Assembly: GCA_026005175.1 (NCBI GenBank)
Contig: BPKO01000001.1
Location: forward strand, 496,001 to 560,000
Length of the DNA: 64,000 nucleotides
Source of the DNA: Candidatus Tectimicrobiota bacterium
Lineage (GTDB): Bacteria > Tectomicrobia > Entotheonellia > Entotheonellales > Entotheonellaceae
Reading direction: 5' to 3'
The notes under the pieces were generated by a model that was not told where the DNA came from, ran no database searches, and saw nothing but the letters and a program-made list of their open reading frames with translations. Position 1 is the first letter of the stretch, and each line of letters starts with the position of its first letter. Below are positions 9,883 to 25,504 of the stretch, one piece after another. The position numbers and the translations under genes are program-made.

Positions 9883-10305
9883 ATGACGCTGCCACGCCAC
9901 GTGCGCTGGGTCAAGCGCTGCCCCCCGCGGCTGCGTCCCATCCTGCGCAACCTGATCATCGTCGGTGCCTCGCTCCTGGCCCTCGCCCGCCTGCAAAACC
10001 TGCACCACTGGCGCGGCAAGCTGCGACGCCTCTATCTCATCACCTTCCGCAAGGGCTACGTGCAGGCCCAGCTGGCCCGCCGCCAGGGCACCTGCAACCA
10101 GTGTGGCGCTTGCTGCCGCCTGGCGGTGACCTGTCCTTTCCTGCACGATAACCTCTGTACCATTTATGGGGATTGCCAGCCGCAGGTATGCCACCTCTTT
10201 CCCATCGACCCCCGCGACCTGGCCGACGTCGGCGAGCAGTGCTCTTACCGCTTTGACGTCGTGACTTCCTTCGACGCCCCTGCCGGGGGCGAGGCGCCGC
10301 GCTAG
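9883..10305 (+). CDS. YkgJ-like cysteine cluster protein with membrane anchor
   Basis: 140-aa protein with an N-terminal hydrophobic segment (about 22-38) and the cluster CNQCGACC (Cys71, 74, 77, 78) followed by further cysteines in PFLHDNLCTIYGDCQPQVC. This CxxCxxCC pattern defines the YkgJ/zinc-iron chelating domain family, whose role is mostly unknown. It starts 11 bases after ilvD and is likely co-transcribed. A link to Fe-S supply for IlvD is possible but speculative. Confidence 0.75.
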   Translation: MTLPRHVRWVKRCPPRLRPILRNLIIVGASLLALARLQNLHHWRGKLRRLYLITFRKGYVQAQLARRQGTCNQCGACCRLAVTCPFLHDNLCTIYGDCQPQVCHLFPIDPRDLADVGEQCSYRFDVVTSFDAPAGGEAPR

Positions 10306-10323
10306 GGATGTCGCCATGCTCCC

Positions 10324-11343
10324 CTAGCCGCCGAGCTCCCGGCGCACCAGCGCGGTGCCGGCCACCATGGCGCGCAGCTTGGCCACCGCCATGTTGCGCG
10401 GGTTCCAGCCAAAGCCGCAGTCGGGGTTGACGTACACCTTCTCCGGGTCGGCGTACTGCAACACCTTGCGGAGGCGGGCGGCCACGTCCTCGGGCGTCTC
10501 CGGGTAAAACGACTTGACGTCAATGACGCCAGCGCCCAACTCGCGGCCGTCGTTCCACTCCCGCCACTTGTCGATTTCGGCCATCTCGCGGCTGGCGAAC
10601 TCGAGCACGAACTGGTCTGCCCGCGCCTCCAGGAGGCCGGGGAAGTAGTCGCTGTAGCTGCGCTTAAAGCGCGCCCGCCCATGGCGATTGCCAAAGCAGA
10701 CGTGCAGCGCCAGCTTGGCTTGCACCCCCTCGGTGGCCAGGTTGAAGAGGCGCGCCATTTCCGTGCCCGAGACGTTGCCGCGCGCCGGCTCGTCGATCTG
10801 GATGAAGCGCGCCCCGGCGGCCACCAGGGCCTTGAGCTCAGCGTTGATGACGTGGGCAAACTCCTCAGCAATTTCCACCGGATTGCGGTAGACGTTGCCG
10901 GGGCGAATGCGCGAGCCAAACGTAAGCGGCCCGGCGCAAGTCACTTTGGTTGGCTTCTGGGTGTGCGCCTTCAAGTACTCAAACTCGCGCACGATGCCCA
11001 GCCCTGCCGGGGCCTCGATGCGGGCCACGGCTTCGTAGCGCGTTTGCTGGTCGTAGCCCCAGGGGCCGGCCTTGCGCGTGGCATACAGCGGGCGCAGGCC
11101 CTCGATGCGGCTGTAGTAGGTGTCGACGTAGCCGTCGAGCCGACGCGCCTCGCCGTCGGTGATGATGTCGATGCCGGCGCGTTCCTGATCGAGGATGGCG
11201 ATGTCCACGGCGTCGCTCAGCAGTTCTTCGAGGTCGTCGGGTCCCCACTCGCCTTTTTCCACCAGGTCCTTGCAGGTATGCCACCAGCCGGGGCGGGCGT
11301 GAGAGCCCACCACCGTGGTGGGCAGCAGCGGTAGCTCGCTCAT
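10324..11343 (-). CDS. MetE C-terminal-domain methyltransferase (cobalamin-independent methionine synthase-like)
   Basis: 339-aa single-domain relative of the catalytic half of MetE. The Zn ligands appear intact: His214 and Cys216 (LHVCFGNRHG), Glu248 (FVLEFASRE) and Cys309 (NPDCGFGW). The N-terminal MetE half that contributes to folate binding is absent, as in archaeal-type MetE and other stand-alone methyltransferases. The methyl donor is therefore uncertain. It overlaps the aconitase stop by 4 bases (ATGA), so it is the last gene of the gltA-prpF-acn operon. Confidence 0.82.
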   Translation of the reverse strand: MSELPLLPTTVVGSHARPGWWHTCKDLVEKGEWGPDDLEELLSDAVDIAILDQERAGIDIITDGEARRLDGYVDTYYSRIEGLRPLYATRKAGPWGYDQQTRYEAVARIEAPAGLGIVREFEYLKAHTQKPTKVTCAGPLTFGSRIRPGNVYRNPVEIAEEFAHVINAELKALVAAGARFIQIDEPARGNVSGTEMARLFNLATEGVQAKLALHVCFGNRHGRARFKRSYSDYFPGLLEARADQFVLEFASREMAEIDKWREWNDGRELGAGVIDVKSFYPETPEDVAARLRKVLQYADPEKVYVNPDCGFGWNPRNMAVAKLRAMVAGTALVRRELGG

Positions 11344-20679: not shown

Positions 20680-20907
20680 ATGACTTTGGAGGAGTGCTTG
20701 CGGCAGTGCGCCATGCTCTCTAGCGGCGGTTATGTGTTATTACGGCGGGGCATGGCGGGAAAACCCAAACGCAAGAAGTGGAAAGTCAACGTGCGCAAGG
20801 GAGGGCGCGAGTTTACCGTCACCGGGCCCTCCTTGCATGCCGTTCTCTATCGGGCCGCCATGCTGCTCCAGCAACCGGTCCCTCGTTCCTGCTCTGAAGG
20901 GGGCTAG
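20680..20907 (+). CDS. Hypothetical small basic protein
   Basis: 75-aa ORF starting MTLEECLRQCAML, with a basic centre GKPKRKKWKVNVRKGGREFTV. It follows the structured region after phoR. No family recognised and no strong ribosome binding site (a weak GGAGTAGGG lies about 20 bases upstream). It overlaps the convergent methyltransferase stop by 4 bases. Coding is plausible but unproven. Confidence 0.35.
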   Translation: MTLEECLRQCAMLSSGGYVLLRRGMAGKPKRKKWKVNVRKGGREFTVTGPSLHAVLYRAAMLLQQPVPRSCSEGG

Positions 20908-21560
20908 GGGCGGCGCTCGGCCACGAACTGCCAGTGATAGGCGCCCGGGCGCCGCTGCTCGACGTCGCTCAGGCGCAGCAATTCAAAGTCGCGCAGCAGC
21001 GCCACCAGCTCGGCGGCATTACAGTAGTAGTGCGGGTGGTGCTTGTCCTCGGTTCCCTCATTGACAAAAGTATTGGGGGCAATTTCCCTGCCGGTGCGCA
21101 CGTCGACGTTGCGCTTCGACAGCATAGTCGCTTGCAGCAGGGCGCCGGGCTTGAGGACCCGGGCGATCTCGGCCAGCACCTGGCGCACCACCGTCTCATC
21201 GCCGTGGTAGATGACATTCCAGGCCAGCACGTAGTCCAGGCAGGCAGCGCGATAGGGCAAGGCGGTCATCTGCGCCTGGCACAACAGCAGCCGGCTGCCC
21301 CGCAGGTTGCCGTCCTGCCGCAGGTAAGCCAGACCGTGCCAGCTGGCATCGCAGGCATAGACGACAAACCCTTGCTGGGCCAGGAAGCGGGCGTGGCGTC
21401 CTACCCCGCAGCCCAAGTCGAGCACCGTGCGCACGCCCCGCGCCCGCAACAGCGGCACCACCGCCTGCACTTCGGCCTCCGGTTCAAGCCAGGCGGCTCG
21501 CCCTGCCTCTGTCTGCCAGCGCGCATCCCAGGCCTCAAAAGCGGTATCGGTGCGGGTCAT
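20904..21560 (-). CDS. Class I SAM-dependent methyltransferase
   Basis: 218-aa Rossmann methyltransferase. The SAM-binding motif I is LDLGCGVGRHARFL, followed by acidic motif II (YACDAS), QAQMTALPYRAACLDYVLAWNV and VLKPGALLQATMLSKRN. The layout resembles the TehB/Methyltransf_11 class; the substrate cannot be told. ATG 21560 is chosen over an earlier start because of the GGAG 10 bases upstream. Confidence 0.78.
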   Translation of the reverse strand: MTRTDTAFEAWDARWQTEAGRAAWLEPEAEVQAVVPLLRARGVRTVLDLGCGVGRHARFLAQQGFVVYACDASWHGLAYLRQDGNLRGSRLLLCQAQMTALPYRAACLDYVLAWNVIYHGDETVVRQVLAEIARVLKPGALLQATMLSKRNVDVRTGREIAPNTFVNEGTEDKHHPHYYCNAAELVALLRDFELLRLSDVEQRRPGAYHWQFVAERRP

Positions 21561-21623
21561 CTGGCGTTTGCTCCGCAATACTTTGGGGCTTGCGCCTATG
21601 TCTCGCCGTAGAGATACCGCCTG

Positions 21624-21704: not shown

Positions 21705-22712
21705 TTACGGTGGCCTGCTGTGGCATGGCCCCTCCAGCCCAATGCGTTGCCCAATCTTGAGCGCCAGAGCGCGGAAGTCGCGGTAGCAACCCTGAACTGC
21801 CTGCGCATGTCCACCAATTGCGCCATCGGCGGGTTTAAGCGCAAACATCGGCTTCCGTGCTTCCTGTGCCAGTGGCATGAGGCTTCGATAGTGCTTGAGC
21901 GTGGCAAGGCAAGAGGGGTCGGTGTCGATAGTCAGCGAGGTCTCTTGGTCTTGTCCGAGCACCGATCGCGCGTACTCGTTCGGAATGCGGTCCATCCAGC
22001 GGTTGTAGGCCTTGACGGGACGGTCCAGACGAATGGCGTGCTGCATAACGACGTACCCCACGGGCTCCATCGTACCGTGAGGAAGCGCCAAGTCCAGCTC
22101 CTGAGGTTTGCGCTCCCGTCGCTCTCGCCATTCCTCACGCCAGCGCCGCAGCGTAGGGCCGAGATTCCGCAGCCCCTGCAGCGAGAAAAGATCTGCGGCG
22201 AGTGGCACGACGACGTAATCGGCCGCCACCATGGCCGCTCGATTGAGCGCACCGAGATTGGGGCCAATGTCAATCAAAACGAGCTGCGCCTCCCGAGCCA
22301 GGGCAGCCTGGCGAAGAATACGCCACAAGGCCGAAAGAACGCGAAAAGCCCGGGGCTTGCGGTCTAGGCAGTCAGGCCATTGGGAAGAGAGTTCGTCCTC
22401 CGCCAAGGACAGCCAAAGGTCGCCCACCACCAGACCCAACCCCGGCGCCACGTCTTCGATGTGGGGCTCGGCGATGTCCCCGATGCCTTCCAGAATCGGA
22501 CTGAGGGCACCAAAGACGGTCGCGCGCGTTGGCGCTTCCCATAACGCCTCTAGGCGATCTTCGTCGAGAAACATGCCGGTGAGGTTTGCCTGGGGATCGA
22601 GGTCGGCGGCAATCACCGAGAAGCCAAGGTCGGCGTACATCCATGCAAGATGGTAGACGAGCGAGGTCTTGCCCACACCGCCCTTGTGGTTGAAGAACGC
22701 GACGGTTCTCAT
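21705..22712 (-). CDS. ParA/Soj-family P-loop ATPase
   Basis: 335-aa ParA-type ATPase with deviant Walker A HKGGVGKTSLVYHLA near the N-terminus, switch I AADLDPQANLTGMFLD and LVLIDIGPNLGALNRAAMVAADYVVVPL. ParA proteins dimerise on ATP and position DNA or protein cargo. No parB or parS-like partner is adjacent. Instead its ATG overlaps the stop of the AlbA/RecG-like gene by 4 bases, making a tight two-gene operon. About 65 residues longer than typical Soj. Base composition looks slightly lower in GC than the neighbours, consistent with an accessory module. Confidence 0.8.
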   Translation of the reverse strand: MRTVAFFNHKGGVGKTSLVYHLAWMYADLGFSVIAADLDPQANLTGMFLDEDRLEALWEAPTRATVFGALSPILEGIGDIAEPHIEDVAPGLGLVVGDLWLSLAEDELSSQWPDCLDRKPRAFRVLSALWRILRQAALAREAQLVLIDIGPNLGALNRAAMVAADYVVVPLAADLFSLQGLRNLGPTLRRWREEWRERRERKPQELDLALPHGTMEPVGYVVMQHAIRLDRPVKAYNRWMDRIPNEYARSVLGQDQETSLTIDTDPSCLATLKHYRSLMPLAQEARKPMFALKPADGAIGGHAQAVQGCYRDFRALALKIGQRIGLEGPCHSRPP

Positions 22713-23899
22713 GGCGCCGGCCTCACCGTGACCAGCACCCACGTGGGGGTAAATCGGAACTCGGGTGGCGGATTCCCGTTTTCGGCCAGTGCCTTCTCGG
22801 CCAAAAGAAGGCCCAGCCCAAACCGCTGCGCGAAGCCAAGATGGTACATGATTTCGGCGATCAGGGGATTACGGTAGTCCGTTGCCCCCTTGCCGAAGTT
22901 CTGCTCATTCACTTGCCCGTACAAGCCGCCGGGACTGTGAATTTCCACCCGATCAGAAAACCAGTAGACACGTACGGGGGCATTTGTTCCTTGATAGCTG
23001 CGATGCATAATGGCATTGCGGGTGTACTGTCGGAGTGCTTCCAGTGGGTAGTCGGGGGTCTGGTGCTCGCGCGCGAGGCCGGCTACCTTCGTGCGCAGCG
23101 AGATGTTGAGCGCGAGCAGTTCTTCTAGGCGCCGCAGAATGTCTTCAAGCCGACCCGTCAGCTCTTTTCGATCGCGAATGGGATCCGTGAGCGCCCCGCC
23201 CGCAAGACGCAGGAACTGAACGTACGCTCCGGGCACCCACCGCTGGGGATCGCGGCCAAAGGCCAGGATGGCCCCGTAGTTTGGCGCTCCGTTGGTCAAG
23301 AGGCGAAGGGAATACAGCTGCTGCTCAAGCGGGCGTGTATTCTGCTCTAGGACGTCCAGCGCCACCGCACGGGGGAGATATTGGGTGCGGAGGTAATCGA
23401 GATCCAGATCATTCAGGGTGGCACCGGGCACAGGCGTATGATCGAAGGGAAGGTGATGTGCGCGACGTCGCTCCGCCAGGCGTTGTTCCTCCTCAGGGGT
23501 GGCCTGGCGTGCTGTCGGGCCAATTTTCACCCATACACGACCTTGGTAGCGTACTGGAGGGTCGCTACTCGGAAAAACGGTAATGACCACGATGTCGCAG
23601 TCATCAAGTGTCCGCTTTTCCACGAGCATAGAAGGCAAGGGTAAGATGTTGCCGTCATCCCGCATGCTCGCGAGGTCGCGCAGCAGTCGATCTGTGATCG
23701 GAAGAGACGCGCAGCGACCATCATCTTGGACACCGATCAGAATCACCCCAGGCCGTCCATATCCCGCCAAATCGTTCGCAAACGCACAAATGTTACGGCG
23801 AATCCCGCTTCGATCGGCAGCAGAAGGCTTACGTTCAATCAAGTCTGATTCCAAATCAAAGCGCATCTGATTAAGTTCTTCATCGGTGTACGGTCTCAT
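22709..23899 (-). CDS. AlbA_2-domain ATP-binding protein (RecG-like/COG2865 type)
   Basis: 396-aa protein. The N-terminal AlbA_2 (Schlafen-related, PF04326-like) domain shows ESDLIERKPSAADRSGIRR, AFANDLAG and GVILIGVQDDG. The C-terminal HATPase_c_4-type part shows ALRQYTRNAIMHRSYQGTN, FSDRVEIHSPGGLYG and YRNPLIAEIMYHLGFAQRFG. Proteins of this layout are annotated as predicted regulators or RecG-like and often occur in mobile or defence islands, but their biochemistry is poorly known. Start ATG 23899 after GGAG. First gene of the operon with the ParA ATPase, between a methyltransferase and tRNA-Asn. Confidence 0.8.
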   Translation of the reverse strand: MRPYTDEELNQMRFDLESDLIERKPSAADRSGIRRNICAFANDLAGYGRPGVILIGVQDDGRCASLPITDRLLRDLASMRDDGNILPLPSMLVEKRTLDDCDIVVITVFPSSDPPVRYQGRVWVKIGPTARQATPEEEQRLAERRRAHHLPFDHTPVPGATLNDLDLDYLRTQYLPRAVALDVLEQNTRPLEQQLYSLRLLTNGAPNYGAILAFGRDPQRWVPGAYVQFLRLAGGALTDPIRDRKELTGRLEDILRRLEELLALNISLRTKVAGLAREHQTPDYPLEALRQYTRNAIMHRSYQGTNAPVRVYWFSDRVEIHSPGGLYGQVNEQNFGKGATDYRNPLIAEIMYHLGFAQRFGLGLLLAEKALAENGNPPPEFRFTPTWVLVTVRPAP

Positions 23900-24259
23900 G
23901 ACTTCTGGGGCTCCTCCGCAGCCTCCAGCAACTTCCCCATGTCTCATGCACACGCAGGGCTCTGAAGCCCGACTCGTGCCGAAAGAAATGCCGAGTCATG
24001 GCCATCCGCGTTCCCCTTATGGATAGACCCCAGCACGGACGCCCTCGCCCGCCGCGAGGCGTATTGTATCTCCTAGCGCCCTGGCTCATCATCGTTGCAG
24101 GACGCTAGGAGGTACCAAACGGGAGGCCACAAGGCGGTTGCAGGAGCGGCGCCTCATCAGGGCAGACAGCGGAAGCGGTAACTCCACACCGCAGACTCTC
24201 GCCCCAACGTGCTGCTACTCTCAGCAAGGCGTCGCGTAGAGATGGAGAGATAGGGAAAG
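23900..24259. other. Non-coding interval between AlbA gene and tRNA-Asn
   Basis: 360 bases with no convincing gene. It holds the inverted repeat listed at 24070-24111 and presumably the promoter of the AlbA/ParA operon, though no clear -35/-10 pair was recognised. No integrase remnant and no repeat of the tRNA 3' end were seen. Confidence 0.5.
24070..24111. repeat. Inverted repeat, 9-bp arms
   Basis: CTCCTAGCG (24070-24078) and CGCTAGGAG (24103-24111) with a 24-base spacer. No T tract. It could be a protein-binding site, a transcript hairpin or a trace of an element boundary. Confidence 0.5.
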
Positions 24260-24332
24260 CTCCCCGGGCCGGATTCGAACCAGCGACCAGTTGGTTAACA
24301 GCCAACCGCTCTACCTGCTGAGCTACCGGGGA
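24260..24332 (-). tRNA. tRNA-Asn (GTT)
   Basis: 73-nt cloverleaf on the minus strand: acceptor TCCCCGG pairs with CCGGGGA, D-arm AGCTCAGCAGGTAGAGC, anticodon loop CTGTTAA (anticodon GTT), and T-loop GGTTCGAATCC. CCA is not encoded. Asn GUU tRNA is a queuosine target, and queG lies immediately divergent. Confidence 0.96.
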
Positions 24333-24345
24333 AGGCGACGCCGAT

Positions 24346-24373
24346 ATTATACCCTATTTTGCGCGAGCGTCCA
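24346..24373 (-). promoter_or_regulatory. Promoter of tRNA-Asn
   Basis: On the minus strand a perfect TATAAT (24346-24351) with TGGACG (24368-24373) 16 bases upstream. Transcription would begin just before the tRNA 5' end. Confidence 0.55.
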
Positions 24374-24439
24374 GAGGGAAATGCCGGGCTGCCGCGGCGT
24401 GCGGTAAAATTGGGCAAAGCGCCGCAGGGGAGCACCCGC

Positions 24440-25504
24440 ATGCACGCCACGCTGTCGCGCCGCGAACTCACCGAGCGCCTCAAGGCCCACGCTCTGGCGC
24501 TGGGCTTCGACTTGGTGGGCGTGGCCCCGGTGCAAGAAAGCCCGGAGCTGGCCTTTTTCGAGCGCTGGCTGGAAGCCGGTTATGCCGGTGAGATGCACTA
24601 CTTACAGCGCAGCCGCGCGCGCCGTCTTGACCCGCGCCAGGTGCTGCCCGAGGTGCAGTCGATCGTCGTCTGCGGTCTCAACTACGACACCGACGCCCCC
24701 TACTCTACCGAACAGCCCGATCCCTGCCGCGGCTGGATCGCCCGCTATGCCTGGGGCAAGGACTACCACCAGGTGGTACTCGACAAGCTCCAGCAGTTGG
24801 AAGCCTTTTTGCACCAGCTGGTGCCCACCGCCCGCAGCAAGCCCTACGTGGATACCGGCCCGGTGGTGGAGCGCGTGCACGCCAAGTACGCTGGCCTGGG
24901 CTGGTTTGGCAAGAACACGTGCCTGCTCAATACCCGCCTGGGCTCGTGGTTCTTCTTGGGCGAGCTGCTGGTGAGCATCCCTCTGGAGTACGATCGTCCC
25001 ACGCCAGACCACTGCGGCACCTGCCGGCGCTGCCTTGACGCTTGCCCCACCCAGGCCTTTCCGGCCCCCTACGTGCTCGACGCGCGGCGCTGCATTTCTT
25101 ACTTGACCATCGAGCTCAAAGGAGCCATTCCCGAGGCGCTGCGCCCGCTCATGGGCAACCACGTCTTTGGCTGCGACATCTGCCAGGACGTCTGTCCCTG
25201 GAACCGCAAGCGGCGCTTTACCCGCGAGCCCGAGTTGCAGCCGCGCCCCGCCCAGCACCACCCGCCGCTGGCCGAGCTGGCCCAGCTCACCCCGGAGGCC
25301 TTCCGCCAGCGCTTCCGCGGCACGGCGCTCGAGCGCGCCAAGCGCCGCGGCCTGCTGCGCAACGTCTGCGTGGCCATGGGCAACTCCGGCAACCCGGACT
25401 TTATTCCCCTGCTGGAGCGCCTGAGTGCGGACGAAGACGCGCTGGTGCGCGAGCACGCCGCCTGGGCCCTGGCGCGGTTGCGCCAGCAAGCCTCAGTCGG
25501 CTGA
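24440..25504 (+). CDS. queG: Epoxyqueuosine reductase
   Basis: QueG reduces epoxyqueuosine to queuosine in GUN tRNAs, using cobalamin and two [4Fe-4S] clusters. The 354-aa protein has SKPYVDTGPVVER (conserved Asp), the first ferredoxin motif CGTCRRCLDACPTQAF, then RRCISYLT, and the second FGCDICQDVCPWN. A C-terminal HEAT-like repeat holds NVCVAMGNSGNPDF. Start ATG 24440, with GGGGAG upstream. It is divergent from tRNA-Asn(GTT), one of its expected substrates, and its 3' end overlaps convergent def by 12 bases. Confidence 0.95.
   Translation: MHATLSRRELTERLKAHALALGFDLVGVAPVQESPELAFFERWLEAGYAGEMHYLQRSRARRLDPRQVLPEVQSIVVCGLNYDTDAPYSTEQPDPCRGWIARYAWGKDYHQVVLDKLQQLEAFLHQLVPTARSKPYVDTGPVVERVHAKYAGLGWFGKNTCLLNTRLGSWFFLGELLVSIPLEYDRPTPDHCGTCRRCLDACPTQAFPAPYVLDARRCISYLTIELKGAIPEALRPLMGNHVFGCDICQDVCPWNRKRRFTREPELQPRPAQHHPPLAELAQLTPEAFRQRFRGTALERAKRRGLLRNVCVAMGNSGNPDFIPLLERLSADEDALVREHAAWALARLRQQASVG

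Follow-up and report, generated by a model that had tools for sequence, protein, structure and literature searches.

Two-gene operons that couple a predicted RNase to a ParA-like ATPase have been known since 2013, when proteins of the MAE_18760 family of HEPN domains were found in dyads with ParA/Soj and predicted to be toxin-antitoxin systems, with ParA proposed as the antitoxin (Anantharaman et al., PMC3710099). More recently, a 2026 survey of BREX loci (PMC12839542) described Schlafen RNases that combine a minimal histidine-kinase-type domain with a wHTH and are encoded beside BREX and DUF499 systems. These proteins occur in at least 1017 taxa and are proposed to be backup suicidal effectors, and the survey cites a preprint from 2025 on the role of bacterial Schlafens in anti-phage defence. 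Neither "ParA" nor DISARM occurs in the survey's main text. A third relevant system is PARIS (AriA-AriB, PMC9122126), in which an ATPase and a nuclease form a second line behind restriction and BREX.

Here we describe a gene pair found in a 64,000-nucleotide stretch of DNA from a Candidatus Tectimicrobiota bacterium (the window), in which an AlbA_2/GHKL protein is encoded together with a ParA-family ATPase. Like the HEPN-ParA dyad, it consists of two genes in an operon, one for an RNase-type protein and the adjacent one for a ParA-like ATPase, and the ParAs of the HEPN pairs that we found (partners matching PF18735) fall within the long ParA family to which the ParA described here belongs. The two differ in that the presumed effector here is an AlbA_2/GHKL protein encoded upstream, whereas that of the dyad is a HEPN protein with an RxxxxH motif encoded downstream, and their ParAs form separate clades. 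With the Schlafens of the BREX survey, as its main text describes them, the pair shares the domain combination of its AlbA_2 protein (theirs also has the wHTH) and its nesting in BREX and Hma (DUF499) loci. The likeness to PARIS lies in the two genes, ATPase plus nuclease, and the second-line position; its ATPase, AriA, however, is an ABC protein of the OLD type, and its nuclease, AriB, is a TOPRIM enzyme, neither homologous to this pair. Searches for a ParA linked to DISARM, to SIR2 or prophages, or to anti-phage defence returned nothing relevant in the literature searched, and a study of a ParA-like protein and plasmid cost (PMC8544851) was set aside as unrelated. The first-pass annotation of this DNA knew of no named system with these two parts. 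As far as the literature searched goes, that holds for the AlbA_2-ParA pair, as it does for its nesting in DISARM and for SIR2 and RelA/SpoT partners of this ParA family, but HEPN-ParA dyads were already predicted in 2013, and BREX-associated Schlafen RNases have been surveyed in 2026.

Results

A two-gene operon beside tRNA-Asn

The first-pass annotation placed the pair in a tight operon between a methyltransferase gene and tRNA-Asn(GTT), with AlbA_2 and HATPase_c_4 domains in the upstream protein, ParA downstream and a 4-base overlap between the genes, all of which proved correct (Table 1). We placed the start of the AlbA_2 gene at ATG 23899, which has GGAGGAG upstream, and not at GTG 23953, because of the sequence and the start position in relatives. 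The inverted repeat upstream of the operon has 24-nt arms, 83% complementary, and a 14-nt spacer, and could be an operator or a terminator.

Table 1. Features of the locus in the window, followed by partner genes of long ParAs at other loci
Feature	Position or locus	Strand	Basis
Long ParA-family ATPase, about 335 aa; ATG overlaps preceding stop	21705..22712	-	Pfam, fold
AlbA_2 (Schlafen-type) + GHKL/HATPase_c_4 gene, presumed RNase effector, 396 aa	22709..23899	-	Pfam, fold
ATGA stop/start overlap of AlbA_2 and ParA genes	22709..22712	-	sequence
Imperfect inverted repeat upstream of operon, between operon start and tRNA-Asn	24060..24121	.	
tRNA-Asn(GTT), outside module	24259..24332	-	
SAM methyltransferase, flanking gene	20904-21578	-	
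queG, flanking gene	24359-25504	+	
SIR2 partner of long ParA	L057, L058		PF13289
RelA/SpoT-like partner of long ParA	L049		PF04607
RiboL-PSP-HEPN partner of long ParA	L050, L070, L091-L098, L100, L101		PF18735
Cyclase-like partner of long ParA	L051		read from sequence; no Pfam match

The lower GC suspected for the module was confirmed, at 60.2% against 66.7% for the remainder of the window, and values this low occur in only 1.2% of same-size windows. Its accessory character likewise holds. The first-pass annotation remarked that tRNA-Asn is a common integration site. The tRNA does lie next to the module, but the cassette by itself is unlike a tRNA-integrated element, because the window yielded no repeat of the tRNA 3' end. 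With no integrase adjoining the pair either, we rejected such an element. The neighbourhood of the tRNA nevertheless varies among relatives. Two further genomes of the family, G002 and G003, also have queG and tRNA-Asn side by side, and there (loci L148 and L149) a type I methyltransferase gene lies near or directly beyond tRNA-Asn in the pair's stead; the site beyond the tRNA-Asn 3' end is a variable defence spot in family members. L148 additionally carries a partial second queG, which suggests recombination at the tRNA-Asn/queG spot. A ParA profile search of a 386-genome sample found no ParA of the window's clade in sister genomes of the family, which speaks for transfer.

As the first-pass annotation had also noted, there is no ParB partner: none adjoins the pair in the window, and none was seen as an adjacent partner in the relatives examined. 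The genome's own parA-parB lies ~500 kb away (G000:C1:13.6-14.7 kb). A second AlbA_2/GHKL protein of this genome (L002, G000:C1:301359-302339) is 32% identical to that of the pair and has no ParA match within 1.5 kb.

The upstream protein resembles Schlafen RNases and the downstream protein is a long ParA

The upstream protein matches AlbA_2 (PF04326, E 1.5e-11) and HATPase_c_4 (PF13749, E 1e-17) in Pfam. The best structural match of its AlphaFold2 model (pLDDT 83) is DIP2311 of Corynebacterium diphtheriae (3lmm; Z 20.6, ~20% identity), followed by the SAMD9 tRNase domain (Z 9.7) and SLFN11/13/14 (Z 7.5-8.4, with the SLFN11 N-domain at 8.4). The C-domain matches histidine-kinase ATP-binding domains at Z ~7-8, which may reflect mere shared arrangement on this scale. 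"RecG-like", the earlier label for this protein, is a misnomer, as its C-domain is of the GHKL/histidine-kinase ATP-binding type and its N-domain is Schlafen-like. As modelled, the AlbA_2 domain has a fold of the Schlafen/SAMD9 tRNase-domain type. Within the clade, E35 and E40 are invariant (36/36 each) and D77, found in 30/36, is not universal; we take these residues to correspond to the SLFN11 catalytic acids E209, E214 and D252. The pair's protein thus appears to keep both the PF04326 fold and the catalytic acids of the Schlafen/AlbA_2 RNase family, for which RNA cleavage would be predicted, and judging from the model it is a probable Schlafen-type RNA-cutting enzyme. The catalytic Glu of the GHKL N-box is replaced by Gln309 in 35 of 37 clade members, while all 18 other AlbA_2/GHKL relatives have Glu. 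By analogy with Hsp90 and GyrB, this change should slow ATP hydrolysis.

The downstream protein matches AAA_31/ParA (PF13614, E 5e-25) and has a deviant Walker A motif, KGGVGKT, with the signature lysine. The best structural match of its model (pLDDT 88) is DIP2308, also of C. diphtheriae (3pg5; ~23% identity), with Soj next, and the protein falls within a long ParA family (~330-390 aa) that takes in 3pg5/DIP2308 (profile E 8e-73). The tags DIP2308 and DIP2311 are only three apart, which, going by the locus tags, suggests an independent, old pairing. Fold and ATPase motifs (KGGVGKT, PF13614, Soj-like fold) are as in ParABS; unlike ParABS, the pair has no adjoining ParB and is not tied to replicons.

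The pair is conserved across phyla

Searched against GTDB contigs, the AlbA_2 protein gave 19 loci. Going by their record titles, these come from Acidobacteria, Pseudomonadota, Gemmatimonadota, Nitrospirae, Latescibacteria, SAR324, Bacillota, Planctomycetota and Omnitrophota (at least nine phyla). Conserved adjacency was the check that the first-pass annotation had proposed, and it was found from both sides. A ParA gene lies directly downstream in 17 of the 18 loci with a full-length or nearly full-length match, the 17 ParAs being matched at 55-72% identity; in the exception, L038, only the ParA end remains. In a spread sample of 386 genomes, a ParA profile found clade ParAs in eight (the window's own included), and all eight have an AlbA_2 gene upstream, truncated in one case. 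The NTGA overlap is preserved in 37 of 38 intact pairs, and the AlbA_2-paired ParAs form one clade (40 rows, support 100/99). Distances within one set of proteins correlate with those within the other (r 0.60; the highest r in 2000 permutations was 0.29), indicating, at the level of sequence, that they are co-inherited. Judged by conserved adjacency across phyla, the pairing is beyond chance, and the AlbA_2-ParA pair is a conserved module common to many unrelated bacteria and carried by some phages. ORF calls outside annotated records were mechanical. No E. coli homologue was found at the DNA level, and viral contigs yielded the AlbA_2 protein in no case by single-sequence search and in two with an alignment.

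AlbA_2 proteins without ParA are also widespread: among L003-L021, a ParA was found beside L003 only. In damaged copies of the pair it is mostly the AlbA_2 gene that is affected: L032, L108, L109, L110, L111 and L125 have a broken or truncated AlbA_2 gene and an intact ParA, and L038 has the damage in ParA instead. Some of these seven may be assembly errors. Such lopsided decay fits, weakly, a costly effector. In L108, from the one-contig genome G622, ~650 bp (~9897-10544) are inserted inside the AlbA_2 gene and ParA is intact. L086/L115, considered as a broken AlbA case, was rejected, since the tree places it in a lone-ParA clade. Downstream of the pair, L022 (8703-9884) and L029 (5228-6796) carry a second, distant AlbA_2-like gene.

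A minority of copies are nested in defence loci

Most copies, that of the window included, stand alone among housekeeping genes. A minority adjoin a methyltransferase within named defence loci, and in seven (L022, L030, L031, L102, L109, L117 and L154; neither the window nor most others) the pair is encoded inside a core BREX, DISARM or Hma locus. The Hma locus L030 reads HmaA, pair, HmaB, HmaC by profile scan (E 0 to 4e-137). L031 has the same gene clusters as L030, by clustering, with HmaA at its contig position. L022 has a truncated HmaA upstream and an HmaB-like fragment after the second AlbA_2-like gene, and L117 has a pair-HmaC arrangement. The class 1 DISARM locus L102 has the pair between DrmD (E 0) and DrmMI (2.5e-284), and L109 is a decayed class 1 DISARM with the pair. 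In the BREX locus L154, PglX (E 0) is followed by the pair, PglZ (2e-281) and BrxL (3e-255). Elsewhere, HEC-01A and a type IIG enzyme follow the pair (L122), and on a prophage-type contig (L052) its neighbours, as read from the sequences, include genes for phage structural proteins, a RelE/HigA-like pair and a methylase of the Dam type.

A strong HmaA match occurs in ~10 of 45 genomes tested and is beside the pair in three of these, where position alone would give an estimated ~0.03 (~10 kb of ~3-4 Mb). An obligate link to Hma was rejected, as HmaA is not beside the pair in most pair-bearing genomes. Membership in a PADLOC system was also rejected, since both proteins match general or partial profiles only. 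The Argonaute-associated PADLOC matches probably arise from Schlafen domains fused or linked to Argonaute-associated proteins, and PDC-M28B was dismissed because its matches span the P-loop only.

Distant long ParAs have other partners

Distant members of the long ParA family have different partner genes, which as a rule lie downstream and in many cases overlap the ParA gene (Table 1). The RxxxxH motif is present in 12 of 12 aligned HEPN partners (RRN[K/Q]IAH). Partner type tracks the ParA tree, with 9 changes against 23.7 when shuffled; the positions in it of the SIR2, RelA and cyclase branches, which are long, are quite uncertain. A tblastn search of IMG/VR gave 407 stretches with a ParA relative, not all necessarily of the long type, and a redundant sample of the best 80 (81 loci, near-duplicates included) had as neighbours SIR2 in 17, RelA/SpoT-like in 14, HEPN in 2, cyclase-like in 1 and AlbA_2 in 2. 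Roughly half of the 81 loci have no same-strand partner, so ParA may act alone. In two viral contigs (L202, L203), a long ParA is followed by a gene of yet another partner family, with proteins of up to 310 aa. Lone long ParAs occur between c2 and gene 24 of the P22-like phage ST160 (L060 3980-5086), an interval where lambdoid phages carry exclusion genes, and in a P2-like prophage, where the ParA gene is flanked by tail genes and lies on the strand opposite to them (L053 4918-5922).

Discussion

We propose that the pair is an abortive-infection module, an RNase effector under a ParA-type ATPase that sometimes serves as a second line behind methylation-based defence, and we give this reading a probability of roughly 0.6. 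It is supported by the conserved pairing and gene overlap, the single ParA clade, the domains and predicted folds, the kept Schlafen acids, the nesting in defence loci and prophages, and the effector-type partners of the same ParA family. The first-pass annotation had left defence, plasmid-like positioning and regulation open; defence is the best supported, and the other two are unsupported. Against abortive infection stand AlbA_2 relatives without ParA (L004, L152, and L038 with its remnant), the IMG/VR long ParAs, about half of them, that have no partner on their strand, and the fact that D77 is not universal. As most copies are alone among housekeeping genes, the case for backup defence draws on a minority of loci.

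We hypothesize that the AlbA_2/GHKL protein is a triggered Schlafen-type RNase, probably acting against tRNA, whose GHKL domain would bind ATP with the usual catalytic Glu lost. The long ParA would be the controller that keeps it silent until an infection signal alters the ATP- or DNA-bound state of ParA, and the effector would then be released or activated. ParA proteins bind DNA non-specifically. Because of this, and because of the module's nesting in BREX, DISARM and Hma loci, we guess that the trigger may be an anti-restriction DNA mimic, as for PARIS.

The same gene overlap and effector-type partners would suit a toxin-antitoxin pair, with AlbA_2 as an RNase toxin that is constitutively active and ParA as the antitoxin, an arrangement of the kind proposed in 2013 for a relative, the HEPN-ParA dyad (PMC3710099). 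We consider this unlikely, as AlbA_2 persists without ParA in L004 and L152 and beside a mere remnant in L038, and PARIS, the nearest functional analogue, is non-toxic on deletion of either gene (PMC9122126). The target could also be incoming replicons or co-infecting phages, so that the pair would serve plasmid or superinfection exclusion and not abortive infection by phage. What speaks for exclusion is that prophages and plasmids carry long ParAs, lone or paired, one of them in the c2-gene 24 interval of a P22-like phage; however, the AlbA_2-ParA copies are mostly chromosomal, several inside anti-phage operons, making it improbable. A transcriptional or metabolic regulator without a conflict role would account for stand-alone copies beside housekeeping genes, yet the patchy cross-phylum spread, the low GC and the copies in prophages and defence operons leave it very little room. 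Least probable of all is a module for DNA partition or positioning, in which the AlbA_2 protein would stand in for ParB as the DNA-binding component, since the true ParA fold and the signature lysine in Walker A are set against chromosomal copies among housekeeping genes, no adjoining ParB, a parAB of the genome's own elsewhere, and distant relatives paired with SIR2, HEPN and RelA/SpoT genes.

Returning to abortive infection, the pair is most likely part of a larger group of systems that link the same kind of ATPase to various killer enzymes. More tentatively, we speculate that the long ParA family might be a general infection sensor, one ATPase scaffold whose killer can be exchanged (Schlafen RNase, HEPN RNase, SIR2 NADase, RelA/SpoT-like synthetase, cyclase-like enzyme). 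Prophages would spread it, and within BREX, DISARM and Hma it would serve as a fallback when phages disable these systems.

ParA ATPases are the textbook motors of DNA segregation. If one ParA family controls killer enzymes in infection, many "partition proteins" of prophages would be misannotated defence controllers. Swapping of effectors on one ATPase, if true, would mean that a trigger found once could apply to many systems. The pair would also offer a compact bacterial model of Schlafen regulation, with relevance to human SLFN11 and SAMD9.
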